Assembly: GCF_020524585.1 (NCBI RefSeq)
Contig: NZ_JAIVLK010000007.1
Span: 1-64,000, forward strand
Direction: 5' to 3'
Origin: Celeribacter naphthalenivorans
Lineage (GTDB): Bacteria > Pseudomonadota > Alphaproteobacteria > Rhodobacterales > Rhodobacteraceae
DNA: 64,000 nucleotides
This document shows positions 7,214 through 29,878 of this stretch, in pieces (position 1 is the stretch's first letter; every line of letters begins with the position of its first letter). A program made the translations under genes and the position numbers. A model generated the notes under the pieces. That model saw only the letters and a list, made by a program, of their open reading frames with translations, had not been told where the DNA came from and searched no databases.

Positions 7214-7215
7214 AC

Positions 7216-8892: not shown

Positions 8893-9990
8893 TTAGGCAG
8901 AAATCATGTGTTCTGGGTCAGAGTATCGGGGCGGGGCGGCGATGGATTGTCTGAGCACCAGCCGAGGCTCCACGAGGCTGTGAGAAATGCTGAGGTCATT
9001 CAGCTTGAGCCGGTGCAGAATCTGATGCGCGGCCTCCACGCCAATGACGTAGTTGTCGATTTCCGCGGTGGACAATGGTGGAGAGGTCATTTCGGACATC
9101 GCCGTGTTGTCGAAGCCGCTGATTGAGAAATCTTCGGGCACCTTGAGGCCCAGTTCCCGCGCGCGGGACAGGGCGCCAATCGCCTGTGTGTCGTTGCCGC
9201 AGATGATGGCTGTGGGGCGCTCCGCCAAGGGCAGGCGCATGAGAGCATCAAGGCTGTCGGCACCGTGTTTGAGGCTGCCGTCGCCGATCAGGATGTGGTC
9301 CGGGTCAAGGGCGATACCGGCCTCTGACAGGGCCAGTTTTACCCCTTCAAGACGTGCCGCGACGCGTGTGTTTCCCTCGACCTGCTGAAAGATCAGGCCA
9401 AATTTCTGATGCCCGGCATCCAGATGAACGCGAGTCAATGCGGCGAAAATTTCGTCGTGGCGAAAGCCGATACAGGGATGCGGCAGATCAGAGCCGTAGA
9501 TGTAGCTCAGAACATAGGGCGTCTTGTGGACTTTGAGCTGTTGAAAAAGCATGTCGGGATAGTCTTCGCCCACGAGCATCAGGCCCTCGACACCATGTTG
9601 CAGCATGGCGCCGACCTCAGCCAAAGCGTCCGCGCCGGAGTACCGCGAACAGCCGAGAAAGAGCCTGTATCCGTGCTGGGTGAGGACATCCTGCATCCCC
9701 AACACCTGACGGGCGAAGATTTCGTTGTCGAGCGTCGGGATGATCGCGCCGAGGATTCGGGTCCGGTTGGTCGCCAGGGCTCGCCCGGCGGCGCTCGGCA
9801 CCCAGTTCAAAAGCTCGGCCGCCGCGAAGATACGTGTCCTCACGGTTTCGCTCACGCGCTCCGGGTCATTGAAGGCGCGGCTGACTGTCGCAGTGGAGAC
9901 GCCGGCTTTTTCCGCGACCTGACTGAGACTTGCGCCTGTTTTGCGCGACCTGTTGCGGCGGCGTTTTGGTTGTGTGTCGTCGTTTTGCAC
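8893..9990 (-). CDS. LacI-family transcriptional regulator
   Basis: 365 residues, starting at a GTG preceded by GGAGGA. After a basic N-terminal tail (PKRRRNRSRK), the HTH reads SLSQVAEKAGVSTATVSRAF with the hinge-side NDPERVSETVR. The rest is a periplasmic-binding-protein-like effector domain with ILGAIIPTLDNEIFA and a late ISGFDNTAMSEM motif. It is close to GntR/GntH-type LacI members that sense sugar acids. It is transcribed away from the PfkB kinase gene. A perfect LacI-type palindrome lies in the shared promoter region at 10065-10082, so it most likely represses the rightward catabolic operon and itself. Confidence 0.88.
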   Translation of the reverse strand: MQNDDTQPKRRRNRSRKTGASLSQVAEKAGVSTATVSRAFNDPERVSETVRTRIFAAAELLNWVPSAAGRALATNRTRILGAIIPTLDNEIFARQVLGMQDVLTQHGYRLFLGCSRYSGADALAEVGAMLQHGVEGLMLVGEDYPDMLFQQLKVHKTPYVLSYIYGSDLPHPCIGFRHDEIFAALTRVHLDAGHQKFGLIFQQVEGNTRVAARLEGVKLALSEAGIALDPDHILIGDGSLKHGADSLDALMRLPLAERPTAIICGNDTQAIGALSRARELGLKVPEDFSISGFDNTAMSEMTSPPLSTAEIDNYVIGVEAAHQILHRLKLNDLSISHSLVEPRLVLRQSIAAPPRYSDPEHMISA

Positions 9991-10045: not shown

Positions 10046-10095
10046 TTGACCCATATTGGGCAGATATGTAAGCGCTTACATAGGAGGAGACAACT
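10046..10095 (+). promoter_or_regulatory. LacI operator TATGTAAGCGCTTACATA overlapping the catabolic promoter and RBS
   Basis: An 18-bp perfect palindrome with the central CG typical of LacI-family sites lies at 10065-10082. A TTGACC (10046-10051) sits where a -35 box would be, putting the palindrome over the -10 region. The following AGGAGGAG (10083-10088) is the kinase ribosome binding site. Binding here should block transcription of the rightward operon. The divergent LacI gene starts at 9990. Confidence 0.7.
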
Positions 10096-10995
10096 ATGCT
10101 CACGGTTTTCGGCTCGATCAATCTCGACCTGTTGTGCAGGGTGCCTCGTCTGCCGGACGAAGGTGAGACTCTCAGGATGACCGCATTGCAGACGATGCCG
10201 GGCGGCAAAGGCGCCAATCAGGCCGTCGCGGCGGCGCGTGCCGGTGCGAAAGTGCGCATGATCGGAGCTGTCGGCCAGGACGCGGCGGCGACAGAGGCGC
10301 TGTCGGGGCTCGTTGCGTCCGGGGTCGATCTGTCCGGTGTTGCAAGTATCGAAGATCAGCCCACGGGAACGGCCATCGTCCTCGTAGAGCCGGGCGGCGA
10401 CAATCGCATACTGATCGCTGCCGGGGCCAATGATCACGTGACCATGTCGGATGCCGATCAGGATGGTTGGCTGTTGCTTCAGATGGAAGTGCCGGTTGAA
10501 AGTCTTGTTCAGGCGATCGACAGCGCCACGGCCTCTGGCCAAAAGGTCATGCTCAACCTCGCACCTGCCGCGCCTTTTCCCCGCGCCAGCCTCGAAAAAC
10601 TCACGCTTCTGGTGGTGAACGAAGGCGAGGCCACGGAACTCAGCCTGCAACTCGGGTGTGCGGCAACGGCGGAGGCCCTGTCGGAGGCGCTTGGGATCAC
10701 TGTTTTGCGCACCCTTGGGGGCGCAGGAGCGGAATGTTGCGGCCCTATGACCTCCGGTGTGCTTCTGAAAGCGGCGGCGCCCTCCATCCGGCCTGTTGAT
10801 ACGACAGCGGCCGGGGACACGTTCATCGGCTTTCTCGCCGCCGCCCTCGATGCGGGCCAGCCTATCGGGACGGCCATGGAACGCGCGGTGCGGGCGGGTG
10901 CGCTCACCTGCCTGACACGGGGCAGTCAACAGTCCATTCCCGATGCTGCCGCGCTCGATGCGGCGACATTCGAACAGGAGAGCTTGGATGCGTAG
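10096..10995 (+). CDS. PfkB-family carbohydrate kinase (ribokinase-like)
   Basis: A 299-residue kinase of the ribokinase fold. It starts MLTVFGSINLDLLCRVPRLP and carries signature 1 (GGKGANQAVAAARAG, about 36-50). Signature 2 reads DTTAAGDTFIGFL (about 236-248), where the Asp of AAGD is the catalytic base. Substrates in the family include ribose, 2-keto-3-deoxygluconate and other sugars, and sequence alone does not decide. It is the first gene after the LacI operator, and its end overlaps a small ORF by 8 bases. In the pathway proposed here it might phosphorylate a pentose or 2-keto-3-deoxy acid intermediate. That role is inference. Confidence 0.85.
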   Translation: MLTVFGSINLDLLCRVPRLPDEGETLRMTALQTMPGGKGANQAVAAARAGAKVRMIGAVGQDAAATEALSGLVASGVDLSGVASIEDQPTGTAIVLVEPGGDNRILIAAGANDHVTMSDADQDGWLLLQMEVPVESLVQAIDSATASGQKVMLNLAPAAPFPRASLEKLTLLVVNEGEATELSLQLGCAATAEALSEALGITVLRTLGGAGAECCGPMTSGVLLKAAAPSIRPVDTTAAGDTFIGFLAAALDAGQPIGTAMERAVRAGALTCLTRGSQQSIPDAAALDAATFEQESLDA

Positions 10996-11149
10996 CGTCA
11001 AAGCCCTTCTGGTTCAGCAGCCCCGTGAGCCGCAGGTTCCGGGCGTGACCACGCGATACACGATCGCGCCTTTCTCTGGCCTGTCGGGTGACATCGACGG
11101 GCTGCATCCCTCTTTCGCCACCTCTCAGCTGTTTGGAGCTTCGGTATGA
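10988..11149 (+). CDS. Small coupled ORF (53 residues), function unknown
   Basis: The ATG at 10988 has a well-placed AGGAG (10977-10981) and overlaps the kinase stop by 8 bases. Its own stop overlaps the next gene start (ATGA at 11146-11149). This tight fit on both sides suggests real translation and coupling between the kinase and the first DapA-like enzyme. The product starts MRSVKALLVQQPREPQV and has no signal peptide, membrane helix or Cys motif that I can see. It could also be a translational relay with no stable product, or a relic of a longer gene. I do not recognise it. Confidence 0.5.
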   Translation: MRSVKALLVQQPREPQVPGVTTRYTIAPFSGLSGDIDGLHPSFATSQLFGASV

Positions 11150-12066
11150 CACGTTCTTTCTCGGGGATTATCCCCGTCATGATCACCCCCTTTCTCGACA
11201 CTGGCGAGATCGATGCCGAGGGGCTGACGCGGCTTGTCGATTGGTACATCGACCACGGGGTCGACGCCTTGTTCGCGGTGTGTCAGTCCAGTGAAATGCA
11301 ACATCTGTCGCTCGCTGAGCGGGTGCAGCTGGCCGAGCTGACGCTCAAGGCTGTGCGGGGCAGGGTGCCGGTGATCGCCTCGGGCCATGTCAGCGACGAC
11401 ATGGAGGCCCAGCTCGAAGAGTTGAAGGCCATCGCGGCGACCGGCATGGACGGGATGGTTCTTGTGACCAACCGGCTCGGGCTTGGCGAGGCGTCCTGGC
11501 AGGACGATCTCGATTGGCTTCTGGAGCGCCTGCCGGAAGACCTGCCGCTGGGGCTTTACGAATGCCCCGCGCCGTTCCGCCGTTTGCTGAGCGACGAAGA
11601 ACTGGCCTATTGCGCCGGGACCGGACGGTTTGGGGTGCTCAAGGATGTGTCCTGCGATCTGCCGACTGTGACGCGCCGGGTGGCGCTGACCGAGGGCACG
11701 CCGCTGCGCATCGTCAACGCCAATGCGGCGATTGCGGGTGCGGCGATGAAAGCTGGCGCGCGCGGCTTTTCGGGGGTGTTCACCAATTTCCACCCGGACC
11801 TCTACCGCTGGCTGATGACCGAGGGGGAGGCCCATCCGGAACTGGCCGAAGATCTGACGATCTTCCTCGCGCTCGCGGCCCAGACCGAACCGATGGGCTA
11901 TCCCAAGCTTGCCAAGCTGTATCATCAGCGTCTCGGCACATTTGACGGCATTTCGAGCCGGGCCGCCAATTTCGATATCGAAGAGCGGTTCTGGGCGCTG
12001 GTCCCGACGCTGGAGCATATCGAACGCGGCACCGAGAGTTTCCGCGCCCGGATCGCAGCGCTTTAA
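11146..12066 (+). CDS. DapA/NanA-family class I lyase, paralog 1
   Basis: A 306-residue TIM-barrel enzyme of the dihydrodipicolinate synthase/N-acetylneuraminate lyase superfamily. It starts GIIPVMITPF. The Schiff-base Lys is in GVLKDVSCD (about residue 168) and the conserved Tyr in LGLYECPAPF (about 138). Where most family members have GTTGE, it has CQSSEM (about 46-51), shared with the second paralog. In this family a carboxylate and keto group are bound at that site, so altered substrate choice is likely. Members cleave or condense pyruvate with aldehydes, or dehydrate sugar acids. Context suggests a 3-deoxy-2-ulosonate aldolase. Confidence 0.8.
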   Translation: MTRSFSGIIPVMITPFLDTGEIDAEGLTRLVDWYIDHGVDALFAVCQSSEMQHLSLAERVQLAELTLKAVRGRVPVIASGHVSDDMEAQLEELKAIAATGMDGMVLVTNRLGLGEASWQDDLDWLLERLPEDLPLGLYECPAPFRRLLSDEELAYCAGTGRFGVLKDVSCDLPTVTRRVALTEGTPLRIVNANAAIAGAAMKAGARGFSGVFTNFHPDLYRWLMTEGEAHPELAEDLTIFLALAAQTEPMGYPKLAKLYHQRLGTFDGISSRAANFDIEERFWALVPTLEHIERGTESFRARIAAL

Positions 12067-12363
12067 CCGACAGGGCAGAGACTGAACGCGTAGAAATCTG
12101 TCCGGCAGCTCATTTAAAACAACTTGATCTGCCGGATATGTCACATTAGTGTCGCCATGCTAACTCGAATTAGCAAAGAGATTCTTTGGGAGGAGATCAC
12201 GCAGGTGCAAGAGAAGGTTCTCGGGCTCTGCGAGGACACACCCCCAATTTGTGCCTGCGACCTGTGCGTAGGCATTTCACGGCAAAGCAGCGCAGTTCCA
12301 TGCCGCTCCTCTTGAATATGGGCGCGAACTGTTGGCTGGAGACTGATAAGAAGAGGATGGGTC
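12067..12363 (+). promoter_or_regulatory. Leader region with operator-like TGCTAACTCGAATTAGCA
   Basis: About 300 bases between the two lyase genes. An inverted repeat at 12158-12175 (TGCTAA and TTAGCA around a CG centre) has the size and CG core of a LacI-type operator, but its sequence differs from the site at 10065. The 190 bases from there to the next ATG are a long leader. It contains GGGAGGAG (12188-12195) and a short Cys-rich frame ending at 12315. The layout suggests an internal promoter under a second regulator, possibly the LacI protein at 20923. Confidence 0.4.
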
Positions 12364-13314
12364 ATGCAGAATTCTGACAAAGCCAAAATTGGCTCGCAAT
12401 ATGGGGTCTGGCCCGTCATGCTGACGCCATTCACCGAGAATTACGAAATCGATTGGGCCTCTTTGGAGCGATTGATCGACTGGTATATCGACGCCGGCGT
12501 GCAGGGGCTTTTTGCCAATTGCCAGTCCAGCGAAATGTTCTTTCTCGATGCGGCTGAGTCTCTCAAATTGACGCAGTTCGTGGTCGATTACACCGCAGGG
12601 CGTGTTCCGGTGATTTCATCCGGCCACACCGCTGGATCTGCGAGCCGTCAGATCGAACAGATTCAGGCCCATGCCGAAACCGGGATCGAAAGCCTGATCC
12701 TGATCAGCAACCGTCTTGCATCGCAGGATGAGGGCGATGATGTGTTCTTGCGCCGCCTCTCGGATATCACGGCACATATCCCGGAAACGGTGAGTGCGGG
12801 ACTTTATGAGTGCCCCTATCCGTACAAGCGTCTTTTGTCCGATGAGGCGGTCAAATGGTGCGCTGACTCCGGGCGTTTCAGCTTTCTCAAGGATACCTGC
12901 TGCGACCCTGAGATGCTGCGCCGCCGGGCCCAGCTGGTGCAGGGCAGTCAACTCCGGATCATGAACGCCAACGGCCAGACGGTTTTGGAAAGCCTGAAGG
13001 CGGGCTGCCATGGCTATAGCGGTGTCATGGCCAATTTCCACCCGCGTCTGTGGGTGTGGTTGGTCGAGAATTGGGACAAAGAGCCGGAAAAGGCGCAGAC
13101 CTTGTCGGATTATCTGTCGTCGGCGGCTATGCTCGAATATCTGGACTATCCGGTTTGTGCCAAAGACTATCAAAAGCGCATTGGCAATTTCACCACGGAT
13201 CTGAGCCGCACCCGCCCGATTGGCGGATACTATCAGGGCCATTTCCCGCACACTGTCACGCGCACCCTCGCATTGGGCGATCAGGTTGCTGACATGCTTG
13301 GCATTGAACTCTAA
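12364..13314 (+). CDS. DapA/NanA-family class I lyase, paralog 2
   Basis: A 316-residue relative of the lyase at 11146. It has GVWPVMLTPF at the start, CQSSEM (about residue 56) in place of GTTGE, Tyr in AGLYECPYPYKRLLSDE and the Schiff-base Lys in FLKDTCCD (about 179). The C-terminal part is longer and carries RTRPIGGYYQGHF. The two enzymes clearly share ancestry yet are diverged throughout, which argues for distinct substrates or steps (for example dehydration versus aldol cleavage) and not a recent duplication. A dehydrogenase follows after 13 bases. Confidence 0.8.
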   Translation: MQNSDKAKIGSQYGVWPVMLTPFTENYEIDWASLERLIDWYIDAGVQGLFANCQSSEMFFLDAAESLKLTQFVVDYTAGRVPVISSGHTAGSASRQIEQIQAHAETGIESLILISNRLASQDEGDDVFLRRLSDITAHIPETVSAGLYECPYPYKRLLSDEAVKWCADSGRFSFLKDTCCDPEMLRRRAQLVQGSQLRIMNANGQTVLESLKAGCHGYSGVMANFHPRLWVWLVENWDKEPEKAQTLSDYLSSAAMLEYLDYPVCAKDYQKRIGNFTTDLSRTRPIGGYYQGHFPHTVTRTLALGDQVADMLGIEL

Positions 13315-13327
13315 CGGAGGAAATCTC

Positions 13328-14281
13328 ATGACCTATCGAGTCCTCGTGACCGCAACGAACTTTTCGGAGCTCTGCAAGGAGGCGAAGGCCCTCTTGCTCG
13401 AGAATGGCTGCGACGTCATCGAGAATGACTTTGGCCGTCCGATGACATTTGACGAGCTCAAAGACCGCGTCGCCGATGTCGATGCCGTTGTGGCCGGTGT
13501 CGATGATTGGAATGAGGATGTGTTTAAAATCGCTCCGAACCTCAAAGCCATCGCGCGTTTTGGGGTCGGGGTGGATAACATCGACATCGAAACCGCACGC
13601 AAATACGGGATTTCCGTGACCAATGCGGCAGGCGGAAATTCCAACGCCGTGGCGGAACTGACCGTCGGTCTTATCATCTCTGCGATGCGCAGCGTGCCCC
13701 AGCTTCATGCGTCGACGCGCGAAGGCAAATGGGACCGCTTCGTGGGCGATGAGATCATCAATCGCAAGATCGGGATCCTTGGGTTCGGCAATATTGCGCA
13801 AAGCATCGCGAAGAAGCTTCAGGGCTTTGATGTAGACGTCATGGCCTATGACAAGTTTCCGAATATGGCAGCGGCAGAAAAGCTGGGCGTGACGATGGTG
13901 GATGCGGATACGGTTGTCGCAGAGGCCGATGTGCTGTGCATGATGCTGCCAAGCCTGAAGGAAACCCATCATTTCATGAATGCGGAGACTTTCGCGAAGA
14001 TGAAAGACGGGGCCTATTTCATCAATACCGCGCGTGGCGCTTTGGTGGATGAGGCGGCGCTGGCCGAGGCGCTGACCGGTGGCAAACTGCGCGCCGCTGC
14101 GATTGATGTTTATGAGACCGAACCGACCTCTGTCGACAACCCGCTGTTCTCAATCCCCAACATCCTGACCACGCCGCATACCGCCGCCGAGACCTATGAG
14201 ACCTATCACGGCGTCGGCCTGATCACAGCACAGGCTGTTCTGGACGTTCTGGCGGGCAAAACGCCGAAGAACCTTCTCTGA
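13328..14281 (+). CDS. D-isomer-specific 2-hydroxyacid dehydrogenase (phosphoglycerate-dehydrogenase-like)
   Basis: 317 residues from the ATG at 13328, which follows GGAGGAAATCTC; a longer in-frame extension would run into the upstream gene. The NAD-binding motif is ILGFGNIAQ (about 148). The catalytic triad is visible: Arg in NTARGALVDE (about 234), Glu in DVYETEP (about 263) and His in TPHTAAET (about 281). Family members interconvert 2-hydroxy and 2-oxo acids with NAD(P)H. In this operon it could reduce a 2-oxo acid released by the lyases or oxidise an imported 2-hydroxy acid. Substrate unknown. Confidence 0.85.
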   Translation: MTYRVLVTATNFSELCKEAKALLLENGCDVIENDFGRPMTFDELKDRVADVDAVVAGVDDWNEDVFKIAPNLKAIARFGVGVDNIDIETARKYGISVTNAAGGNSNAVAELTVGLIISAMRSVPQLHASTREGKWDRFVGDEIINRKIGILGFGNIAQSIAKKLQGFDVDVMAYDKFPNMAAAEKLGVTMVDADTVVAEADVLCMMLPSLKETHHFMNAETFAKMKDGAYFINTARGALVDEAALAEALTGGKLRAAAIDVYETEPTSVDNPLFSIPNILTTPHTAAETYETYHGVGLITAQAVLDVLAGKTPKNLL

Positions 14282-14301
14282 GAACGGTAAGGGAGGCGCT
14301 T

Positions 14302-14330
14302 CACTTGCCCGCAGACCCTGCGGGCAGGTG
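14302..14330 (+). other. Strong intercistronic hairpin
   Basis: CACTTGCCCGCA pairs with TGCGGGCAGGTG around a 5-base loop, with one T-G wobble. No T-run follows, so it is not a standard intrinsic terminator. It lies between the dehydrogenase and the TRAP genes and could protect the upstream mRNA or set the ratio of enzyme to transporter transcripts. Confidence 0.5.
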
Positions 14331-14356
14331 GCAAGAGTACGAAGGGAGGACTGACT

Positions 14357-14869
14357 GTGAAGTTTGTCAGATATCTGGATCGCAACCTTGAGCGGTCCTT
14401 GTTGACGGTGATCCTTGTGACGATCTCGATCACGTTGATCGCGCAGGTTTTCATGCGCTATTTCCTGGCCAGTCCTTTGGTATGGGCCGAGGAGCTTTCC
14501 CGCTTTTTGCTGGTCTGGTGCACCATGATCGGCAGCAGCTATGCCGTGAGAGAATCCCGACACATCATCGTCGATTTCGCACCCGTGATGTTCGGCAAGC
14601 GTTCCATTACGTTTTTCACCCTAGTTTCGCATCTTGGCGTGCTCGCCTTTTGCATCACGGCGCTTTATTACGGCGTCCCCTTCGTGGAACGCGTCAGGTC
14701 CATCGGGCAGCTGTCGCCGACGCTGAACCTGCCTATGTGGCTGGTGTATCTTGCCTTGCCGGTGGGCATGGCCGCGACCGCCCTTCGGACGTTGCAGGCG
14801 ATCTATCTTTTGCTGGTTCAGCCGACCCCGTCCGACGATCACGATGAAACCAACACAGAGGTGATGTGA
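14357..14869 (+). CDS. dctQ: TRAP transporter small membrane subunit (DctQ/SiaQ type)
   Basis: A 170-residue integral membrane protein starting at a GTG behind GGGAGG. Four hydrophobic helices are evident. The family signature FMRYFLASPLVWAEELSRFLLVW lies near residues 30-55, followed by MIGSSYAVRESRHIIVDF. DctQ subunits pair with the large DctM permease in sodium-driven, binding-protein-dependent import of carboxylates. The stop overlaps the start of the large subunit (TGATG), the usual coupling for these pairs. Confidence 0.88.
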   Translation: MKFVRYLDRNLERSLLTVILVTISITLIAQVFMRYFLASPLVWAEELSRFLLVWCTMIGSSYAVRESRHIIVDFAPVMFGKRSITFFTLVSHLGVLAFCITALYYGVPFVERVRSIGQLSPTLNLPMWLVYLALPVGMAATALRTLQAIYLLLVQPTPSDDHDETNTEVM

Positions 14870-16146
14870 TGTATCCGGTTTTTGCTCTGGCCTCTTTTGT
14901 CATCCTGTTGTTGGTGACGGTTCCAATCGCCATGTCTCTCGGGCTGGCGGCCTTTGTCCCCGGCTGGCTCGGGGCACCGATCAACCCCAGTCAGGTTATT
15001 CGGACGATCACCACGTCGATCGATTCCTTCCCGCTGCTCGCGGTGCCACTCTTTATGGTGGCTGGCGACATCATGACGACGGGTGGTCTTGCGCGCCGTT
15101 TGTTCAGCTTTGCCGATGCTCTGCTTGGCCGGATGAATGGCGGTCTGGCGGTTTCGACCGTGGTCGCCTGTATGTTGTTCGGCGCCATTTCCGGGTCCTC
15201 GCCGGCAACCGTGGCCGCGATCGGCGCAATGGCGATCCCTTTGCTGATCAAGAACGGCTATGACAAACGTTTCTCGACGGTGTTGGTGACGACGGCAGGG
15301 ACGCTGGGTGTCATCGTGCCGCCGAGCATTCCGATGATCATCTACGGCATGGCGGCCAATGTGTCGGTGAGCCAGCTGTTCATGGCGGGCATTTTCCCGG
15401 CACTGACCATCGGTACGCTGCTTTCGGGCTATGCCTTCTGGTATGGCACGAAGCACAAGGACAAGATCACGACGACAGCGGGTCAGGTGTCGATTGGCAA
15501 GGCGTTCCGTGAGAGCTTCTGGGCGTTGATGGCGCCGGTTGTGGTTCTGGGCGGGATCTATTCCGGCACTTTCACGCCGACAGAGGCGGCTGCCATTGCG
15601 GTGGCTTACAGCACCATCGTCTCGATCTTTATCTTCCGTGAAATGACCTTTGTTCAGTTGTTCAACACCATTGGCAAAACGACATTGATCATCGCGCCGA
15701 TCCTCGTGATCACGGCGACAGGTGCGGCCTTGGGGCGGGTTTTCAACCTGCTGCGTGTGCCGAGCATGATTGGCGAGATGATCAATGGTGTCGTCAGTGA
15801 ACCTTTGATGCTGTTGCTTTTGATCAACTTGATGCTGCTGGTCGTCGGGATGTTTTTGGAAACCTTGTCGGCGATCATCGTGCTGACGCCGATCCTTCTG
15901 CCGATCCTTGCGCCCTATGGCATCGATCCGTTGCACTTCGGTCTCATCATGACGACCAACCTCGCAATCGGATTTGTGACACCGCCGATCGGGGCCAACA
16001 TCTTTGTCGCGACGGGGCTCACGAAAGTCTCGGTGGTCGACATCTGCAAGGGGCTGCCCATCCCTTTGACGCTGCTTTTGATCGGCCTCGCGCTCATCAC
16101 CTATGTCCCCGGACTCTCACTGTGGCTCGTTGGGGTGATGAACTGA
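14869..16146 (+). CDS. dctM: TRAP transporter large permease (DctM/SiaM type)
   Basis: 425 residues, about twelve hydrophobic segments. Family landmarks are PLFMVAGDIMTTGGLARRL (about 55-75), the GAISGSSPATVAAIG loop (about 104-118) and GFVTPPIGANIFVATGL (about 365-381). The start at 14869 overlaps the small-subunit stop. DctM is the ion-coupled translocation unit and takes substrate from the periplasmic protein encoded 56 bases downstream. All known TRAP substrates carry a carboxylate, which fits a sugar acid or ulosonate. Confidence 0.9.
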   Translation: MYPVFALASFVILLLVTVPIAMSLGLAAFVPGWLGAPINPSQVIRTITTSIDSFPLLAVPLFMVAGDIMTTGGLARRLFSFADALLGRMNGGLAVSTVVACMLFGAISGSSPATVAAIGAMAIPLLIKNGYDKRFSTVLVTTAGTLGVIVPPSIPMIIYGMAANVSVSQLFMAGIFPALTIGTLLSGYAFWYGTKHKDKITTTAGQVSIGKAFRESFWALMAPVVVLGGIYSGTFTPTEAAAIAVAYSTIVSIFIFREMTFVQLFNTIGKTTLIIAPILVITATGAALGRVFNLLRVPSMIGEMINGVVSEPLMLLLLINLMLLVVGMFLETLSAIIVLTPILLPILAPYGIDPLHFGLIMTTNLAIGFVTPPIGANIFVATGLTKVSVVDICKGLPIPLTLLLIGLALITYVPGLSLWLVGVMN

Positions 16147-16202
16147 TCTCGCCAGCTGTCCTTTTCTCGAATTGACGATCTCATATCAAAGGAGGAGACC
16201 TT

Positions 16203-17207
16203 ATGAACTACGTCAAGAAATTGCTTTCCGGAGCGGCCGTTGCGGCGGCCACCTTCACCACCCCGGCGTGGGCTGCGGATTATACGATGATCATGGCGCA
16301 TACGCTGTCGGATAAAGAGCACCCGATCTATCAGGCGTTCCTTGAGCTGAAATCGCTGATCGAAGAGCGTTCCGAGGGCCGTATCGAAGTGCTCGACCAA
16401 GGCGGCGGTGCGCTTGGCGGCGACCGTGAAATCATGGAAGCGACCTTGTTTGGCGACATCCAGTTCGGTCCCATGTCCACCTCTGGCGCGACCCAGTTCA
16501 TTCCCGAACTGTCCGTGTTCGACATCCCCTACGTGATGCCCACCGATAGCGAAGCGCGTCGTGCGCTCGTCAATGACGGTGCGCTTGCCGAGGCGATTTC
16601 TGAAGCGCTCGACAAAAAAGGTCTGCGCTATGAAGGCATCATGAACGGTGGCTTCCGCAACCTCACGACGGCGGACACCGAAGTGCATACCCCGGCTGAT
16701 ATCGCGGAAGCCGGTCTGCGCATCCGGGTTCAGGAAAATCCGGTGCACGTGAAAATCTGGTCCGATCTGGGCGCCGCCCCGACGCCGATTTCCTTCCCTG
16801 AACTCTACGGTGCGCTCCAGCAGGGCGTCGTGGACGGGCAGGAAAACCCCTATGGTCACATCCTGTCTCAGCGCTTTTACGAAGTGCAGGGCTATCTGAC
16901 CAACACGAACCATATCTTCCTCGCGAACATCTCGATGATCAGCAAGGACTGGTACGAATCCCTGCCCGAAGATCTTCAGAAAGTCGTGGACGACAGCTTT
17001 AAGGACGCGACCGATTTCCAATGGGAATTGCAGGCGCAGCTTGAGGAAAGCCAGCGTGCGCAGCTTTCGGAACATATGACGATCGTGGATCTGTCCGAGG
17101 AAGAAATGCAGCAATTCCGCGAGAAAACAGCGGGCGTTGCGGACCTCGTGCGCGAACGCGCCGGTGATGAGATCGTCGACATTCTCATGACCGAAGTCGG
17201 CCAGTAA
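16203..17207 (+). CDS. dctP: TRAP periplasmic solute-binding protein (DctP family)
   Basis: 334 residues with a signal peptide ([10 protein letters not shown], cleavage about residue 24) and a very strong ribosome binding site (AAAGGAGGAGACC). The DctP hallmark is [17 protein letters not shown] (about 177), whose Arg forms the salt bridge to the substrate carboxylate. It is followed by [24 protein letters not shown] (about 196-220). The order Q-M-P with P last is common in Rhodobacteraceae. A clear intrinsic terminator follows at 17228, so the operon from the lyases may end here. The ligand is inferred to be the acid processed by the neighbouring lyases. Confidence 0.9.
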
Positions 17208-17227
17208 CAGGCGACCGAACATAAAGG

Positions 17228-17260
17228 AAAAGCCGCATCCAAACGTTTTGCGGCTTTTTT
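17228..17260 (+). terminator. Rho-independent terminator after the TRAP operon
   Basis: AAAAGCCGCA pairs with TGCGGCTTTT around an 11-base loop and runs into TTTTTT. It separates the TRAP genes from the isomerase gene. Confidence 0.85.
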
Positions 17261-17334
17261 CTCTCGCAGGATGCATTGCTGCATCCTCTCTCATCCGCGA
17301 GAAAATTCTCACAATCATTCATGAAGGTAGGCAT

Positions 17335-18960
17335 ATGAGCTCGTCCAAAAAGGTGTATCTCGTTGCAAGCGGCGATCTGCGCGAAAGTGCAAATGTCAAA
17401 TGTTGGCCCGCGCAACAGGAACTGGAAACCCAACTGACCGCAGAGATCGAACGTCTGGGCGGGCAGGTGGAGCGCGCGCATCCGTTTAAAGAACACCTCG
17501 GTCACGGATTTATCGCCAGCCAGAAAGAAGGCCTTGATGTTTTCGAACACATCGACCGCAAGGCGCCGCTGATCGTTGCCGAGGCCGTGTGGCAATATTC
17601 GCTTCATGTGCTGCCGGGGCTGATGGCGCATGAAGGCCCGATTTTGACGGTTGGCAACTGGTCGCCGACCTGGCCGGGTCTTGTTGGGCTTCTCAACCTG
17701 AACGGCTCTATGACCAAGGCAAATGTGAACTATTCCTCGCTTTGGACCGTTGATTTCAAAGACGAATGGTTCCTGAGCCGTCTCGCGCAATGGCTGCGCG
17801 ATGGCGAGGTGAGCCAAGACACCTCCCACGTCGCCCCCTACAAGCCGAGTGCTGCGCAAGACACCCTGGCTCAGGCCAAGGCCATCGCAGAGGACCTGCG
17901 CCACCGGCGGTCGATCATGGGGGTCTTCGACGAGGGATGTATGGGCATGTACAACGCCATTATCCCCGATGAATTGCTCTTCCCGCTGGGGGTCTTCAAA
18001 GAGCGTCTGTCGCAATCTGCTCTCTATTTCGAAACGACGCAGGTGTCAGACGCCGAGGCGCAAGAGGTGTTCGACTGGCTGGTCGAAAAGGGTCTGACCT
18101 TCCATTTCGGTGACAACGGCGCCGAAGATCTCACCCCTGAGCAGGTGCTGGTCCAGTGTAAGATGTATATCGCCGTGGTGCGCATGGCGGAGAGCTACGG
18201 CTGTGAAACCGTCGGCATTCAGTATCAACAGGGGCTCAAAGACCTGTTGCCTGCGTCCGATCTCGTCGAGGGGCTGCTCAACAATGCCGAACGGCCTCCG
18301 GTTAAAGGCGCAAAAGGCGAGATCATCCGGGATGGCGAGCCGATTGTGCATTTCAATGAGGTGGATGAATGTGCCGGGCTTGACGCGCTCTTGATCAACC
18401 GCGTTCACAACGCCTTGGGCCAGCCGCTCGAAACCACGTTGCATGACATTCGCTGGGGCGATTTCGACCCGACCGGGACGACGGAGGACTATGTCTGGAC
18501 CTTCGAAATCTCCGGCGCAGCTCCGGCGGCCCACCACGAAGGTGGCTATGCGGGATCGTCCTCGATGCGTCAGCCGGCCATGTTCTTCCCGTTCGGCGGC
18601 GGCACGCTGCGCGGCATTGCCAAACCGGGTGAAATCATCTGGTCCCGGATTTTCGTCGAAGGTGGCGCGCTGCATATGGACATCGGACGCGGCAAGGCGA
18701 TTTCCCTGCCCGAAGAGGAAACGGAACGCCGCTGGACCTCGACCGACTATGCGTGGCCGATGATGCACAGCGTGCTTTACGGTGTGTCCCGCGACCAAAT
18801 GATGGCGCGGCACAAATCGAACCACATTCAGGTGGTCTACGCCACGGATGCCGCAAAGGCCGATGAGGCAATGCGCGTGCGGGCCGCTCTGGCGCATGAG
18901 CTTGGTATTCAGGTCAATTTCTGCGGCACCGCCGCCGATGGCCGCGAGTTTGTAAGCTAA
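17335..18960 (+). CDS. L-fucose/D-arabinose isomerase-like protein
   Basis: 541 residues from the ATG at 17335 (AAGGTAGG upstream; longer in-frame starts cross the terminator). It resembles the FucI-like family. There is a Rossmann-like N-terminal half ([19 protein letters not shown]), then [15 protein letters not shown] (about 202-216), GIQYQQGL (about 300) and a probable metal-site segment [13 protein letters not shown] (about 340), with a beta-rich C-terminal domain. FucI enzymes isomerise L-fucose and also D-arabinose, the latter to D-ribulose. A D-ribulokinase gene is next, which favours D-arabinose as the relevant substrate. I place it in the superfamily with fair confidence; the substrate is inference. 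Confidence 0.7.
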
Positions 18961-18968
18961 AGCGCCCG

Positions 18969-19045
18969 GCACATCACAAGGGGCGCGCGAGAGGGGCGGG
19001 GCGTATCAGGTGCGCCCCACTCCATAGCCCGGCGGGGTGATGTGC
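18969..19045 (+). repeat. Inverted repeat GCACATCAC/GTGATGTGC enclosing a GC hairpin
   Basis: Perfect 9-bp arms lie at 18969-18977 and 19037-19045. Between them GGGGCG (18998-19003) can pair with CGCCCC (19013-19018). The structure fills the gap between the isomerase and the kinase. It may be an mRNA element or a diffuse operator. The motif GGGGCGTATC recurs after the kinase at 20833. Confidence 0.4.
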
Positions 19046-19072
19046 ACTGACAGGCAAGAAAGGAATTGACGC

Positions 19073-20698
19073 ATGAGCGAGTATTTCATCGGGGTTGATG
19101 TGGGCACCGGCAGCGCCCGCGCAGGGGTGTTCGATGCGGACGGACGCCTTTTGGGGGTGGCAAAGAAGGACCTCCACATCTGGAAGAGCGCCGGCGGTCA
19201 TGTCGAACAATCTTCCGAGGATATTTGGCAGGCGATCTGTTTTTGCACACGCGAGGCGGTGAAACAGTCCGGTGTCGATGCCTCCGCCGTCGTCGGTCTT
19301 GGGTTTGATGCCACCTGTTCTCTGGTGGTGCTCGATCCGCAGGGGACACCGCTTGCGGTGGGAGACTCGGAAGACCCCGCGCGCAATGTCGTCGTCTGGA
19401 TGGATCACCGTGCCACGGAGCAAGCGCGCCGGATCAATGAGACCGGGCATGAGGTCCTTCGCTATGTGGGCGGGCGCATCTCCCCCGAGATGGAAACGCC
19501 AAAGTTGCTTTGGCTGAAAGAGAACCGCGCCGATATCTATGAGCAGGCAGGACATTTTTTTGATCTGGCCGATTTCTTGTCGTGGAAAGCCACCGGCTCG
19601 ACCGTGCGGTCCGTGTGTACGGTGACGTGCAAATGGACCTATCTCGCGCATGAAAAGCGCTGGGACGAGAGCTATTTCGAGGCCATCGGCCTTGGGGATC
19701 TCGCCCGTGACGGGTTCCGGCGTATCGGCACGGAGATTGCCGATATTGCAACGCCGCTCGCGCAGGGGCTGACCGCCGAGGCTGCGGGCGAATTGGGATT
19801 GGCGCAGGGGACCGCCGTGGGCGCCTCGTCGATCGACGCGCATTGTGGTGGCGTGGGCACGTTTGCCTGTCGCGGCCCTGAGGGCGAAGACCTGCCGCCG
19901 GAAACCCAAATGGCGCTGATCATGGGCACCTCTGCCTGTGCGATGACCTTGTCGCGTGATCCGAATTTCGTCGATGGCGTTTGGGGTCCCTACTATGGGG
20001 CGATGATCCCCGGCTGGTGGCTGTTGGAGGGCGGACAATCCGCCTATGGCGCGGCGCTCGATCATTTGCTCAGCCTGCATCCCGCTTATCCTGACATGAT
20101 GCGCAAAGCCGCGGAGGCGTCTCAGGCGTTGCCGGTGTATCTCGAATGCCGGGTCTTGGCGGAGGGTCTGACGGTGGAGACCGCCGCAGATTTGGCGCAG
20201 GCTCTGCATGTCGTGCCGGAGTTTCTCGGCAACCGTGCGCCCTATGCCGATCCCAATGCGACCGCCGTGATCAGCGGGCTGACGCTGGATGCTTCCGAAA
20301 CGAGTTTGTTGCAGCTCTACGTGGCCGGTTTGTGCGGCCTGTGTTATGGCACGCGTCAGATCATTGAGGCGGAAAAGGACAAAGGTCTGCCGATCGAGAC
20401 GCTGGTCGTGAGCGGGGGAGCCGCGCAAAGCGCGCTTTTGCGCCGGATTTTGGCGGATGCCACCGGGATGAAGGTGGCTCTGCCCCGGACGCAGGAGCCG
20501 GTGTTGCTGGGCGGCGCGATTGTGGGGGCGGTGGCCTCTGGTCGCGCGCCGGATCTGCAAAGCGGTGCGACACAGATGTCTGCAATTCAGGAAATCACAG
20601 TGCCGAACCCGGCGTCTGCCGCACTGCACCAGCGCAAATACGAGGCATTTTGTCTGTTGCAGGACGCGGATCGTCAAATCCGGGCGCTGTCATTGTGA
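19073..20698 (+). CDS. FGGY-family D-ribulokinase
   Basis: A 541-residue sugar kinase. It begins YFIGVDVGTGSARAGVFD (phosphate 1). It has WMDHRA (about 107), VTCKWTYLAHEKRWDESYF (about 184-202), SSIDAHCGGVG with the catalytic Asp (about 253) and DPNFVDGVWGPYYGAMIPG. Near the C-terminus it has LVVSGGAAQSALLRRILAD. These are the features of the D-ribulokinase branch (human FGGY, yeast Ydr109c) rather than xylulokinase or AraB. It would convert D-ribulose to D-ribulose 5-phosphate for the pentose phosphate pathway. With the isomerase just upstream it forms a D-arabinose-to-D-ribulose-5-P pair. Confidence 0.85.
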   Translation: MSEYFIGVDVGTGSARAGVFDADGRLLGVAKKDLHIWKSAGGHVEQSSEDIWQAICFCTREAVKQSGVDASAVVGLGFDATCSLVVLDPQGTPLAVGDSEDPARNVVVWMDHRATEQARRINETGHEVLRYVGGRISPEMETPKLLWLKENRADIYEQAGHFFDLADFLSWKATGSTVRSVCTVTCKWTYLAHEKRWDESYFEAIGLGDLARDGFRRIGTEIADIATPLAQGLTAEAAGELGLAQGTAVGASSIDAHCGGVGTFACRGPEGEDLPPETQMALIMGTSACAMTLSRDPNFVDGVWGPYYGAMIPGWWLLEGGQSAYGAALDHLLSLHPAYPDMMRKAAEASQALPVYLECRVLAEGLTVETAADLAQALHVVPEFLGNRAPYADPNATAVISGLTLDASETSLLQLYVAGLCGLCYGTRQIIEAEKDKGLPIETLVVSGGAAQSALLRRILADATGMKVALPRTQEPVLLGGAIVGAVASGRAPDLQSGATQMSAIQEITVPNPASAALHQRKYEAFCLLQDADRQIRALSL

Positions 20699-20832
20699 GC
20701 GCGGCCGCCCGCGACACAGGTGTTGAGAACCTGAGGGCGTCGGTGGTGTGAAAGATTGCGGCGACGGAAGTTTGTGCTAGGGAGACATGCCAAGTAAACA
20801 GGTTTCACACTGGGCCTGACCGGCATGTGCCC

Positions 20833-20847
20833 GGGGCGTATCGCCCC
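20833..20847 (+). terminator. GC-rich hairpin upstream of the second LacI gene
   Basis: GGGGCG-TAT-CGCCCC is a perfect 6-bp stem with a 3-base loop, followed by ATTTATAT. It could end the kinase transcript, although the T-run is imperfect. GTGTGAAA (20746-20753) and TTTCACAC (20803-20810) form a separate wide inverted repeat just before it. Confidence 0.4.
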
Positions 20848-20922
20848 ATTTATATCTGGTGGTTGCGGCTTGTGGTCTCAATGAGGCTGACAGGCCGCTG
20901 ATCTGTGTAAGGACCTGTGAGC

Positions 20923-21933
20923 ATGGCAAAAACGATCTCGGAGATTTCAGAGGCCACAGGGTATTCGCGGACGACGATCACGATGGTGCTCAATGGGCGG
21001 GCAGAGCAATATCGGATCAGCAAACGCGCCCAGAAAATCATCACAGACTATGTGGCGAAACACGGGGTCACGATCAACCAAACGGCGCGCAATCTGAAGA
21101 CCAGCCGCAGCCGCACCGTCGGATTTATTGCTCCCGATCTGGCCAACACCTTCTTTGCCCGCATCATGGCGCGTCTTGAGGAATACTGTCGCGCCGAAGA
21201 TCTGGTTTTGATCACGACCTCCAGCCGGGAGAGCCCGCAGCTCGAACAAAAGGCGTTGCGCAGTTTGCTTGAGCGTGGCGTGGACGGGCTTGTCGTTGCG
21301 CCATGTTCGCCGCTTCAGGCGCAGGCCGCGCAAAGGTCCGCAAAGGCGGTTCCGCTTGTGCTGATCGACCGCGATTATGACGTCCGCAGCTTTCCGGTCG
21401 TGTCCAGCGACCACGAGGCCAGCGCACGTCAGCTCACCCGCGAAATGATCGCATCTGGCGTCGCGAATATCGCGTTTCTCTGTGGACACCCGGATATTCC
21501 CAGTGTTCAGGCCCGGATGAACGGGTTTCGGGCCGCCATCGCAGAGGCGCAGTTCGGCGTCGACGACACACAGCTCTTGTCCGATGAGGAGGACAGTGTC
21601 GAGGCCGGGCAGCGGATGATGCAGGCTTTGCTGCAGGACCCGCAAAAGAGGCCGGCGGCCATTCTCTGTTCATCGTTGCTGGTGCTTGAAGGGGCGCTCT
21701 ATCAGCTGAAACTCACCACGGGTTCGATCCCGTCTGAGATGATGATCGGGGCATTTGACTATGACGGGATGCTGCATTCTCTGCCCAATCCTGTGGTGAT
21801 TGCGCGGCAGGATGAAGACGCTTTGGCCAAATCGGCTTTCCAGCTTTTGTTCCAGCAGATGCAAAGCGACGCGCCGATTGGCAACAGCAGGGAGGTGTTT
21901 CCTGCTGAGATGATGCGCCTCGACACGCCGTGA
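20923..21933 (+). CDS. LacI-family transcriptional regulator (second)
   Basis: 336 residues. The HTH is at the extreme N-terminus (MAKTISEISEATGYSRTTITMVLNGR), with TTITMVLNG in place of the usual TTVSRVLNG. The effector domain opens with RTVGFIAPDLANTFFARIM and includes GVDGLVVAPCSP and VLIDRDYD. I chose the ATG at 20923; a GTG six bases upstream is possible (AAGGA at 20909-20913). It differs strongly from the regulator at 8893, so the cluster seems to respond to two inducers. Likely targets are the isomerase/kinase unit and perhaps the internal site at 12158. This assignment is inferred. Confidence 0.85.
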   Translation: MAKTISEISEATGYSRTTITMVLNGRAEQYRISKRAQKIITDYVAKHGVTINQTARNLKTSRSRTVGFIAPDLANTFFARIMARLEEYCRAEDLVLITTSSRESPQLEQKALRSLLERGVDGLVVAPCSPLQAQAAQRSAKAVPLVLIDRDYDVRSFPVVSSDHEASARQLTREMIASGVANIAFLCGHPDIPSVQARMNGFRAAIAEAQFGVDDTQLLSDEEDSVEAGQRMMQALLQDPQKRPAAILCSSLLVLEGALYQLKLTTGSIPSEMMIGAFDYDGMLHSLPNPVVIARQDEDALAKSAFQLLFQQMQSDAPIGNSREVFPAEMMRLDTP

Positions 21934-21978
21934 TCCCTCCTGTGCGGCCCGTGTGCACAAAACGGTCGGGCGCCTCAT

Positions 21979-22656
21979 TCACGTGAGGGGCGGGCAGGGC
22001 TCCGCAGGGTTGTGATTCCAACACAGCGCCTTGCCAGCCTCGATCACACAGAAATGCCCGGTCAGCACCTTCGCCTGACGGGGGGCAATCCCGTATTGTT
22101 CTGCGATCAGTCGCAAAATGCCATTGCTGGTCACAATCACCGCCGTGGCGTCGGGACCATGCGTTGCCTCAATCTGGCCGATCATCTCCGCCCAGGCCTG
22201 CGCGATATGATCCGGTTTCGGATGCCAGTCAAACCCATCGGGCCAGATGCTGTCCTTTTGCCATCGGGTGATCTCATCCGGGCCAAATTGGGCAATGATC
22301 TCGTCGTTCGATTTGCCTTCCCACACACCGTAATCAATTTCGCGCAGCGCCTCTGAGGACTGGCGAGGCACGCTTTGCCACCCCGCATGATCGGCCAGAA
22401 TCTCTGCGGTTTCTGTGGTGCGCTGCAATGGGCCATAGATCAGCGTATCCGGTTTGATCCGGGAGGCTGCGAAGGCTTTGCCCAATTGCTGCGCCTGATC
22501 TTTCCCTTTGTGCACCAAAGGCATATCGCTGCGCGCGCCCACCCAGACCACGCGATCTTCGGGGCCAAAGGTGTTGCCGTGGCGGACCAGAACCAATGTC
22601 AGCCCAGTCTTGGCCTCCAAACGGGATGTGTCGCAGGTCTCAGTCAACAAGCTCAC
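21979..22656 (-). CDS. Histidine phosphatase family protein (phosphoglycerate-mutase-like)
   Basis: 225 residues from a GTG at 22656 that overlaps the end of the KdsB-like gene by 17 bases. A longer frame would run through that gene. The active-site motif is LVLVRHGNTF (about residue 20), the second Arg is in YGPLQRTTETAEIL, and the proton-donor Glu is in REIDYGVWEGKSNDEI. The second catalytic His is less obvious, with VIVTSNGILRLI where SHG..IR is usual (His to Asn). That substitution could lower activity or change its role. Coupling to kdsB suggests action on a phosphorylated ulosonate or nucleotide, which I cannot prove. Confidence 0.75.
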   Translation of the reverse strand: MSLLTETCDTSRLEAKTGLTLVLVRHGNTFGPEDRVVWVGARSDMPLVHKGKDQAQQLGKAFAASRIKPDTLIYGPLQRTTETAEILADHAGWQSVPRQSSEALREIDYGVWEGKSNDEIIAQFGPDEITRWQKDSIWPDGFDWHPKPDHIAQAWAEMIGQIEATHGPDATAVIVTSNGILRLIAEQYGIAPRQAKVLTGHFCVIEAGKALCWNHNPAEPCPPLT

Positions 22657-23422
22657 CCTCGCGCCGGATGATGTCTTCGACGATGGCGATATCCTCTTTG
22701 GCATCGACAGAGGCATGGGTGCGACCGTGGTAGTCGACAATGACAGTGCGCACTGTCATGCCGTTTTCCAAGGCCCGCAACTGTTCAAGCCCCTCTGTGA
22801 GTTCCAGAGGCGAGGGCTCAAGGTTGACATATGTGCGCAAGGCTTCCGGGCGATAGCCGTACAGACCGATATGGCGATAGGTCTGCGTGTGTCCGGGCGA
22901 TCTCACATAGGGCATGATGAGTTTGGAGAAATAGAGCGCATTTCGCTGTTTGTCGAAGACGGCGGTGGTGCCGCTTGCGGGGGTGACTTCCTTACTTTTG
23001 CGCAGATCACGCAGCATCGCATCGTCCAGCGCGGTGACGGGGGTCACAATGTCAAAGGCGTTGTCGGGTTGGTCAAATTCGTCGATCATTGCCTGAAGCA
23101 CCCAAGGCGGGGTCAAAACCGCATCGCCCTGAAAATTCAAGACGGCGCTCTCTGTCGCCCCAAGCGCTTCGAGCGTGGCGTAACAGCGCTCTGTGCCGTT
23201 GCGACATTGCACATCGGTCAGTATGGCCTCGGCGCCAAAACTCTGGGCGTGATCGACAATGCGCTGATCTTCGGTGCTGATCACCACTCGCGAGTTGCCG
23301 CGCGTCGCTTTCGCGATGTTCCAAACCCGCTCCAGCATGCTGACACCTGCGATGTCGAACATGGGTTTTCCGGGCAATCTGCTTGACCCATAGCGAGCGG
23401 GGATGACGATTAAAACGGACAT
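22640..23422 (-). CDS. kdsB: KdsB-like CMP-ulosonate (Kdo) cytidylyltransferase
   Basis: A 260-residue nucleotidyltransferase. The CTP-binding start is VIPARYGSSRLPGKPM. Other KdsB landmarks are CRNGTERCYATLE (SGTERxAE in typical KdsB), VLNFQGDAVLTPP (the usual VNxQGDEP, with Glu to Ala), RHIGLYGYRPEALRTYV and PSPLELTEGLEQLRALENG. The metal-site region near the end reads ASVDAKEDI, where KdsB has GVDTPED. It is clearly KdsB-like but diverged from housekeeping enzymes, so it could activate Kdo or a related 3-deoxy-ulosonate. Its place beside putative ulosonate catabolism genes is notable. It is probably in addition to a housekeeping copy elsewhere. Confidence 0.8.
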   Translation of the reverse strand: MSVLIVIPARYGSSRLPGKPMFDIAGVSMLERVWNIAKATRGNSRVVISTEDQRIVDHAQSFGAEAILTDVQCRNGTERCYATLEALGATESAVLNFQGDAVLTPPWVLQAMIDEFDQPDNAFDIVTPVTALDDAMLRDLRKSKEVTPASGTTAVFDKQRNALYFSKLIMPYVRSPGHTQTYRHIGLYGYRPEALRTYVNLEPSPLELTEGLEQLRALENGMTVRTVIVDYHGRTHASVDAKEDIAIVEDIIRREGELVD

Positions 23423-23831
23423 TGCGACCTTTCCGAAACCTTTGCGTACTCTTTAAAGGCAGATACCGCCTTTTCGAAAGGCATTCAATTTATCGGGCCC
23501 GCTTTTATGCGGTCCGACGTGCTGCAGCTCTGTCTAAGGCAGAGCCGGGCGGGACAGGTCCTGCGTTGAATGACATGCCATATCTCCCCGAAAGCCGTCA
23601 CCTTGGAAACAGATAGGCGGAGGGATTGAAGCTGTGGCGAAGAATGTTTCTTGACAGCTGATATTATATAAATAACATTTATGAAATAAATAACATCCAA
23701 AGACTCGCGCTGGGGAGAGGAGCCCCGGCGAGAGGCGCGCATATCCGGCGCGGGATTGGAGTTGGTTTCTCTGGAGGAGAGGGGCCTGAAACTGAGCATG
23801 CGTGGAGGCATGCTCGCAATGGGAGGAAACT
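23423..23831 (+). promoter_or_regulatory. Promoter region of the sugar ABC operon
   Basis: This gap of about 400 bases has no gene. TTGACA (23651-23656) with TAACAT 16 bases later (23673-23678) is a plausible promoter. Around it is an AT-rich block with ATAAAT-AAC-ATTTAT symmetry (23668-23682) and a repeat of AATAACAT. TGATATTA here also occurs in the divergent promoter near 32310. GGGAGGAA precedes the ATG at 23832. Confidence 0.5.
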
Positions 23832-24812: not shown

Positions 24813-24892
24813 GATCCGGTTTCAGAACATCGACCGGGCGCATCCCTGCGATGCCCCGGTCTCCTTCTCAGGCCAATCTCAGGGAGATCGAT

Positions 24893-29007: not shown

Positions 29008-29047
29008 GGGTTCTCCTCCCAAGAATGGTGGCGTCGCAGGGCGCGCG

Positions 29048-29878
29048 CTATTTGATGCTGCCCTGTGTCAGGCCGCCGACGAGATGTTTCTGAAACAGGA
29101 ATGCGATGAGATAGATCGGCACCATGCCGGTGAAGGAGGCCGCCGCCATCTGTCCGAAATTCACCAGTCGCTCGCCCTGAAAGAGCGACATGCCGACCGT
29201 GATCGTGCGGCTCGCTTCGCTGAATGTCAGGGCCGAGGCAAAAAGAAACTCGTTGTAAGACAGGATGATACAGATCAGCGCGGTGGCCAGAATGCCGGGA
29301 AAAATCAGCGGCAGGATCACCGCGAAGAGCGTGTGCCAATAGCCCGCGCCGTCGATCCAGGCGGCTTCGTCGATCTCTGCCGGGATGTCGCTGACAAAAC
29401 TCTTGAGCAACCAAAAAGCGACGGGCAGGTTCATCAGACCGTGAACCAGCGCAAGGCCCGGAATGCTGTCCATCAGCTGTGCGGTTTGCAACAGATAGAA
29501 CAGCGGGATCAACGCGATGATCGGTGGCGCGGCATAAGAGGCCAGCGTGATGTTGGGGACGGTCCTGCGAAAAGCCCCGAGTTTGATCGTGGCATAGGTC
29601 GCAGGCACCGCGATCACCAGCGTGATCACCCCGCTCAAAAGCGCCACGGCGACCGAGTTCCAAATCATGCGCAGAACCGGGACATGCGCGAAGGCATTGG
29701 GGTAATTCTTGAGCGTTGCGGCCTCTGGCAGGAGCCGACCTTGCAACACATCGTCGGGCGTTTTGAACGAGGTCGAGAATAGGTAGACGATGGGCAGCGC
29801 GAAAAAGATCAGCATCGCGGCCAGAAAGCCGAACCGGATCAGGCGATCCGTGCGGGTGTCCTGAACAGAGGCGGTCAT
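29048..29878 (-). CDS. Carbohydrate ABC transporter permease (MalG/UgpE type)
   Basis: 276 residues from the ATG at 29878, which overlaps the preceding permease stop (ATGA). Six hydrophobic helices are visible. The EAA-type loop is EIDEAAWIDGAGYWHTLFAVILP (about 177-199). The start FGFLAAMLIFFALPIVYLFSTSFKTPDD is typical of MalG-like subunits. Confidence 0.9.
   Translation of the reverse strand: MTASVQDTRTDRLIRFGFLAAMLIFFALPIVYLFSTSFKTPDDVLQGRLLPEAATLKNYPNAFAHVPVLRMIWNSVAVALLSGVITLVIAVPATYATIKLGAFRRTVPNITLASYAAPPIIALIPLFYLLQTAQLMDSIPGLALVHGLMNLPVAFWLLKSFVSDIPAEIDEAAWIDGAGYWHTLFAVILPLIFPGILATALICIILSYNEFLFASALTFSEASRTITVGMSLFQGERLVNFGQMAAASFTGMVPIYLIAFLFQKHLVGGLTQGSIK

Follow-up and report, generated by a model that had tools for sequence, protein, structure and literature searches.

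A candidate operon for the catabolism of Kdo, or of a closely related 3-deoxy-octulosonate, in Celeribacter naphthalenivorans

Sialic acid is catabolized (nan/sia scheme) by means of an importer, the lyase NanA, an anomerase and a sugar kinase, and the use of D-arabinose by Escherichia coli involves FucI, which isomerizes this pentose. 3-Deoxy-D-manno-octulosonate (Kdo) is part of most Gram-negative lipopolysaccharide and of the pectin rhamnogalacturonan II, and is therefore an abundant carbon source. Here, we analyze a stretch of 64,000 nucleotides from Celeribacter naphthalenivorans (hereafter the window; first part of contig C7, in a host genome of 4.36 Mb), which carries between positions 8893 and 23422 two catabolic modules and a bystander pair of genes coding for a KdsB and a histidine phosphatase. 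Judging from its sequence, module 2 (12158–20698, together with its regulator LacI2) is reasonably likely to be an operon that breaks down Kdo or a 3-deoxy-octulosonate very close to it.

Excerpts from the literature provide the relevant chemistry. KDO aldolase converts KDO into D-arabinose and pyruvate (PMC4412817), and its number, EC 4.1.2.23, figures in Table 5 of a 2007 survey, among the validated orphan activities, with the rank 'difficult' (PMC1940265). N-acetylneuraminate lyases make KDO from D-arabinose and pyruvate, D-arabinose being used at 1–1.5% of the best substrate (PMC4016182). D-ribulokinases have been reported, including DarK for D-arabinose, at the fucose locus (PMC12307932), and the activities tabulated for GH33 include a Kdo hydrolase (PMC9120202). 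No dedicated Kdo catabolic operon was found in the open-licence literature searched, a body of work outside which subscription papers and preprints mostly lie.

Domains were called with Pfam on 30 open reading frames (ORFs) of the window and with NCBIfam/TIGR models, and structures were assigned through PDB matches. Module 2 comprises, all on the + strand, a lyase of the dihydrodipicolinate synthase (DHDPS) family termed DHDPS2 (12364–13314; PF00701), a D-2-hydroxyacid dehydrogenase recognized by Pfam (13328–14281, a probable start deduced from the ribosome-binding-site-like GGAGGAAA and the length of the homologue), the three components of a tripartite ATP-independent periplasmic (TRAP) importer, a FucI-type aldose–ketose isomerase (17335–18960, 17335 being the probable start of an ORF open from 17248), an FGGY pentulose kinase (19073–20698) and, finally, LacI2 (20917–21933). 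The importer consists of the small permease DctQ (14357–14869; PF04290), the large permease DctM (14866–16146; PF06808) and the solute-binding protein DctP (16203–17207; PF03480), whose nearest solved chains include 7bbr and the isethionate-binding 8t9t. The kinase gene is followed by a terminator-like hairpin (20833–20847, + strand), which is a consensus match only, such matches numbering 17 in the window versus 13.4 expected. A preliminary description of the locus had listed a carboxylate TRAP importer, two NanA/DapA-type lyases, a FucI-like isomerase, a KdsB and a phosphatase, all of which were recovered in place with Pfam and TIGR models. It also listed a D-ribulokinase: the kinase is there, under a label narrower than the name of the model it matches (TIGR01315, FGGY family pentulose kinase). 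Missing from that list were a ribokinase-like gene, the D-2-hydroxyacid dehydrogenase and both LacI regulators.

The enzymes of module 2 retain the residues expected of a lyase and of an isomerase. The two lyases, DHDPS1 of module 1 and DHDPS2, match PF00701 (92.7 and 66.7 bits, cut-off 22.1). Both keep the class I aldolase residues Y148 and K176; none of 10 aligned rows departs from them, and the two columns line up with the Tyr and Lys of solved DHDPS, which we take to be the catalytic Tyr and the Schiff-base Lys. Neither reaches the NanA equivalog TIGR00683 (31.4 bits for DHDPS1 and 27.3 for DHDPS2, cut-off 382). The isomerase matches the catalytic fold of FucI/D-arabinose isomerase. Of its metal ligands, E342 and H497 line up in all 42 rows, and the third, D371, was placed by eye where the automatic alignment has a gap; the ligands of E. 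coli FucI are E337, D361 and H528. This fold and metal site fit a conversion of D-arabinose into D-ribulose. As for the kinase, it scores 675 bits with TIGR01315 (cut-off 408.7), a model whose name goes no further than 'pentulose kinase', and its nearest PDB entry, 3gg4 (E 1.5e-157), was deposited as a glycerol kinase / xylulose kinase; D-ribulose would be the substrate of the window's kinase.

DHDPS2 is rarer than DHDPS1: at E 1e-95 it was found in a single genome of the 385 of the window's class, and at E 1e-40 in one of the 20 genomes of the genus, its own in both cases, so the cluster was probably acquired. Six DHDPS2 loci were collected outside the window, on a Klebsiella plasmid (L009), in Proteus mirabilis (L012), in G340 (L107), in G775 and G802, which belong to the same genus (L152 and L153), and on a Martelella plasmid (L105, continued by L106 across the record start); a near-copy record (a second Proteus) was omitted. 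In the order of G340, the gene was found in 3 of 345 genomes (E 1e-95). In a tree, the window's DHDPS2 and those of the six loci form one clade of seven rows (support 98/100). Kinase, isomerase and DHDPS2 are contiguous, with a LacI2 relative close by, in five of the six, where identity to the window amounts to 40–42% for the kinase, 41–45% for the isomerase, 52–57% for DHDPS2 and 33–38% for LacI2. A gene with a sialidase fold (BNR_2), devoid of signal peptide as judged by eye, follows DHDPS2 in all six, and its product may be a ketosidase or an anomerase. The carriers were annotated in L009 and L105 and judged by eye in the other loci: P. mirabilis, G340 and Martelella have the TctCBA type, and the remaining three a member of the major facilitator superfamily.

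This recurring unit supports the part of the earlier proposal that joins lyase, isomerase and pentulose kinase in one route. The window's isomerase is 59–68% identical to 33 rows from other contexts, versus 41–45% to those of the five loci (the gap is smaller for the kinase: 40–42% versus 42–56% in alphaproteobacterial loci with a TIGR01315-like match, the FGGY match being just 28–30% at L085 and L092). We argue for a functional link because similar functions and a similar operator have been assembled from different isomerase lineages, as judged from identities and not from an isomerase tree.

In the window, the 297-bp gap upstream of DHDPS2 contains an 18-bp near-palindrome, TGCTAACTCGAATTAGCA (12158–12175), which is predicted to be the LacI2 operator. 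Upstream of the operon, the pattern TGCTAACTCGnnTTAGCA is found in the window, with no mismatch at L009, L152 and L153 and with one at L012; four of the six loci therefore share the window's operator. It also occurs with one mismatch on two Klebsiella plasmids (L013 and L014), which carry kinase, isomerase and LacI2 together with another DHDPS. No further locus outside the window had it at up to two mismatches among 172 loci (2.1 Mb, window-derived ones included), and 12158 is its sole site at this threshold in the host genome. Sites with three mismatches are noise, since in that genome a backwards control gave 16 matches versus 6 for the pattern. LacI2, a FruR-like member of the LacI family, was recognized by NCBIfam and, for its sugar-binding part only, by Pfam, whose LacI helix-turn-helix model did not report it in the scan of the window ORFs; its 60 N-terminal residues are 28–32/60 identical in six relatives, versus 78–93 of 267–275 for the remainder. 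LacI2 probably acts on the 12158 site.

Kdo is the simplest substrate for module 2 and would best fit the lyase–isomerase–kinase set. The TRAP importer would bring the acid into the cell, where the lysine of DHDPS2 would form a Schiff base with Kdo to yield pyruvate and D-arabinose; the FucI-type isomerase would turn D-arabinose into D-ribulose, which the FGGY kinase would phosphorylate to D-ribulose 5-phosphate, and LacI2 would repress the operon by binding at 12158. From what was computed, namely which genes are there, how they recur, the operator sequences, the fold and the catalytic residues, we infer the substrate, the order of the steps, the sugar of the kinase, the single transcript and the repression.

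Several observations weigh against this assignment. Superposed on FucI over the whole chain, the isomerase fits poorly (Foldseek, TM 0.54/0.50, rmsd 23), the good match being confined to residues 172–541, and none of the 80 best isomerase loci contains a gene of the DHDPS2 clade (best identity 25%; 20 of these loci are shorter than 12 kb). In Martelella, the DHDPS2–BNR_2–TctCBA set has no isomerase or kinase nearby, a search for the isomerase on the plasmid found none, and TGCTAACTCGnnTTAGCA appears only at three mismatches; G340 has no site under four. BNR_2 is absent from the window (tblastn), a distant relative (24%) without signal peptide as judged by eye being encoded elsewhere in the host genome (L154:5552-6769). 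The proposed Kdo route does not account for the hydroxyacid dehydrogenase. Membership of the lyase family says little about Kdo, given that N-acetylneuraminate lyases use D-arabinose at 1–1.5% (the above excerpt of PMC4016182). Finally, the two Klebsiella plasmids join kinase, isomerase, LacI2 and operator with a different DHDPS, an enolase-family protein and a short-chain dehydrogenase/reductase (SDR); LacI2 may consequently sense the pentose step and not Kdo.

Other explanations can be considered. DHDPS2 might cleave or dehydrate another 2-keto-3-deoxy acid (a Kdo epimer, or a C5–C7 keto-deoxy acid), with the isomerase and the kinase taking the released aldose or a companion sugar. The DHDPS family is broad enough for this, the nanA, dapA and kdgD models all score far below their cut-offs, and BNR_2 has neither a PDB match (phmmer) nor an NCBIfam match; we nonetheless deem such a substrate unlikely, as a FucI-type isomerase and a pentulose kinase point to D-arabinose, and Kdo would presumably be its source among the keto-deoxy acids that are common in nature. 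It is more doubtful still that the core (isomerase, kinase and LacI2) is a pathway for D-arabinose or an L-fucose-like sugar, with the TRAP system bringing in an unrelated acid for the lyases. The isomerase does occur with an FGGY match and without DHDPS2 in 11 of the best 80 loci and on annotated plasmids, and the two Klebsiella plasmids pair isomerase and kinase with an AraE-like carrier, an SDR and an enolase-family protein. However, the window has DHDPS2 after the operator and before the isomerase, five of the six other loci have it immediately behind the isomerase, and Pfam found no sugar symporter among the genes of module 2.

The preliminary description had placed KdsB and the phosphatase in the same cluster as the lyases. 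A further explanation is Kdo salvage: the local KdsB would turn imported Kdo into CMP-Kdo for a capsule or lipopolysaccharide with the help of the phosphatase, and the lyases would clear the excess. KdsB lies about 2 kb from module 2, and Capsule_synth (PF05159) proteins are encoded elsewhere in the genome. The pair, however, is on the opposite strand (histidine phosphatase, 21979–22740, true start probably later, PF00300; KdsB, 22640–23422) and, at E 1e-5, none of the six DHDPS2 loci matches either gene; the pair does not travel with DHDPS2. KdsB scores above TIGR00466 (160.1 bits versus 155.2) and below the equivalog NF003948 (190.1 versus 281). At E 1e-30, a KdsB match is present in 147 of the 149 genomes of the order: two copies in the host and one in each of the other 146. 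Of these 146, the 29 closest to the window copy were compared: the host's other copy, on C3, is 57–79% identical to them, and the window copy 41–44%, with 39% to the C3 copy. The KdsA of the host is on C2. In Novosphingobium, a similar KdsB–histidine phosphatase pair sits with kdsA, kpsF and a capsule gene; Hirschia has the pair without kdsA or kpsF, and the Salipiger kdsB has kdsA near and no phosphatase. Because the window copy is divergent and resembles the Novosphingobium and Hirschia arrangements, we consider the pair as an extra, capsule-like one whose nearness to module 2 may be due to chance, and salvage as highly improbable.

The two lyases belong to two modules: DHDPS2 keeps company with the isomerase and kinase, and DHDPS1 (11146–12066, + strand; PF00701), 46% identical to it, has different neighbours. 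Its module comprises LacI1 (8893–9990, - strand; Pfam LacI and Peripla_BP_3), a ribokinase-like PfkB kinase (RbsK; 10096–10995, + strand; PF00294) and DHDPS1, and between LacI1 and the kinase lies a perfect 18-bp palindrome, TATGTAAGCGCTTACATA (10065–10082), which is predicted to be the LacI1 operator. The kinase stays below the ribokinase equivalog TIGR02152 (240.7 bits versus 299.65). Fifteen DHDPS1 loci were compared, nine from plasmids (L010, L011, L015 and L156–L161, picked from 426 matching records) and six from genomes (L108–L113). A PfkB kinase matching the window's is beside DHDPS1 or one gene off in nine of them, a relative of the hydroxyacid dehydrogenase is present in two (66%, beside DHDPS1 in Agrobacterium fabrum, and 36%), and a LacI1 relative (47–49% identity) is near the ribokinase–DHDPS1 genes in three (Azospirillum, Burkholderia and G454). 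The kinase-side gap of the window and of all three contains TGTAAGCGCTTACA, identical or one base off. A YhcH-type gene adjoins DHDPS1 in the two loci of the 15 that were searched for it; both products pass TIGR00022 and miss the N-acetylneuraminate anomerase equivalog (84.2 and 116.2 bits versus 160). Pfam detected no YhcH in the 30 window ORFs scanned. Since both modules have relatives in other genomes, under shared operators, the grouping of genes in each is more than chance. We propose that module 1 encodes a second, separately regulated lyase of the ulosonate type and a kinase for the aldose released. A bolder reading, which we advance as speculation and think unlikely, holds that the window has two full routes for free ulosonates, each under its own regulation: DHDPS2 would act on Kdo via D-arabinose and D-ribulose, DHDPS1 and the ribokinase-like kinase on Kdo or its epimer via a pentose 5-phosphate, and the cytosolic BNR_2 protein of enteric relatives would be a new Kdo ketosidase or anomerase. 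If the pentose were D-arabinose, the DHDPS1 route via arabinose 5-phosphate would be Kdo synthesis reversed. The two routes would then make up the first set of genes for the use of Kdo as a nutrient, one that has spread via plasmids and into enteric bacteria.

Verrucomicrobiota and Planctomycetota often carry members of the FucI-type isomerase family, in settings that lack DHDPS2 (L016–L095). The Klebsiella plasmid cluster with the AraE-like carrier (L013, L014) looks like one for D-arabinose or L-fucose use, with two routes. At L004 and L006, isomerase–kinase pairs are near RraA-family and SDR genes, with in addition a citrate-lyase-family aldolase at L006; other pyruvate aldolases perhaps replace DHDPS there. 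On a Deinococcus ficus plasmid (L007), a different combination of these parts stands in a row: an ABC importer, another DHDPS-family gene, a ribokinase, the isomerase (58%) and an FGGY kinase that is only distantly related (26%). Elsewhere in the window, a TonB-dependent receptor followed by an enterochelin-esterase-like protein (5078–8829) is likely a siderophore pair, an Rbs-type sugar ABC importer (binding protein, ATPase and permease; 23802–27362) adjoins KdsB, and a second sugar cluster (27958–37293) comprises a MalK-type ABC importer, a D-2-hydroxyacid dehydrogenase, an FGGY kinase, a class II aldolase and a Sugar-bind (PF04198) regulator. At 38159–49005, ORFs of 2414 and 1221 aa overlap, and the C-terminal part of the shorter one matches an outer-membrane beta-barrel.

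How, then, does the locus compare with described systems? The bystander pair resembles those on Novosphingobium and Hirschia plasmids, but, unlike capsule-type kdsA–kpsF–kdsB–phosphatase clusters, it has no kdsA or kpsF beside it (Pfam). Module 2 shares with nan/sia systems carboxylate TRAP import, the class I pyruvate lyase family and sugar phosphorylation, and NanQ-like genes lie beside DHDPS1 relatives in two loci. It differs from them in its later steps (isomerase and pentulose kinase), in lyases that score far below the NanA equivalog cut-off and in that no amino-sugar enzyme was matched among the window ORFs scanned. In plan, with TRAP, DHDPS2 and FGGY genes in one + strand run that is probably a single transcript, it is like a sialate-type ulosonate operon, a likeness that does not amount to membership; no anomerase or sialidase lies by the window's lyase (BNR_2 by tblastn, YhcH in the 30 ORFs), whereas both occur in relatives. 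As with the E. coli DarK/fucose locus (excerpt of PMC12307932), a FucI-type isomerase and an FGGY kinase would lead to D-ribulose 5-phosphate, to which the window adds a pyruvate lyase, a carboxylate importer and a LacI regulator of its own. If the Kdo reading is right, the locus would provide aldolases with which to synthesize Kdo and a Kdo-related regulator whose operator is known. The reaction predicted for DHDPS2 is that of KDO aldolase (EC 4.1.2.23, as given in the excerpt of PMC4412817), for which it would then be a gene candidate, and a regulated operon that contains such a candidate makes Kdo breakdown directly testable.

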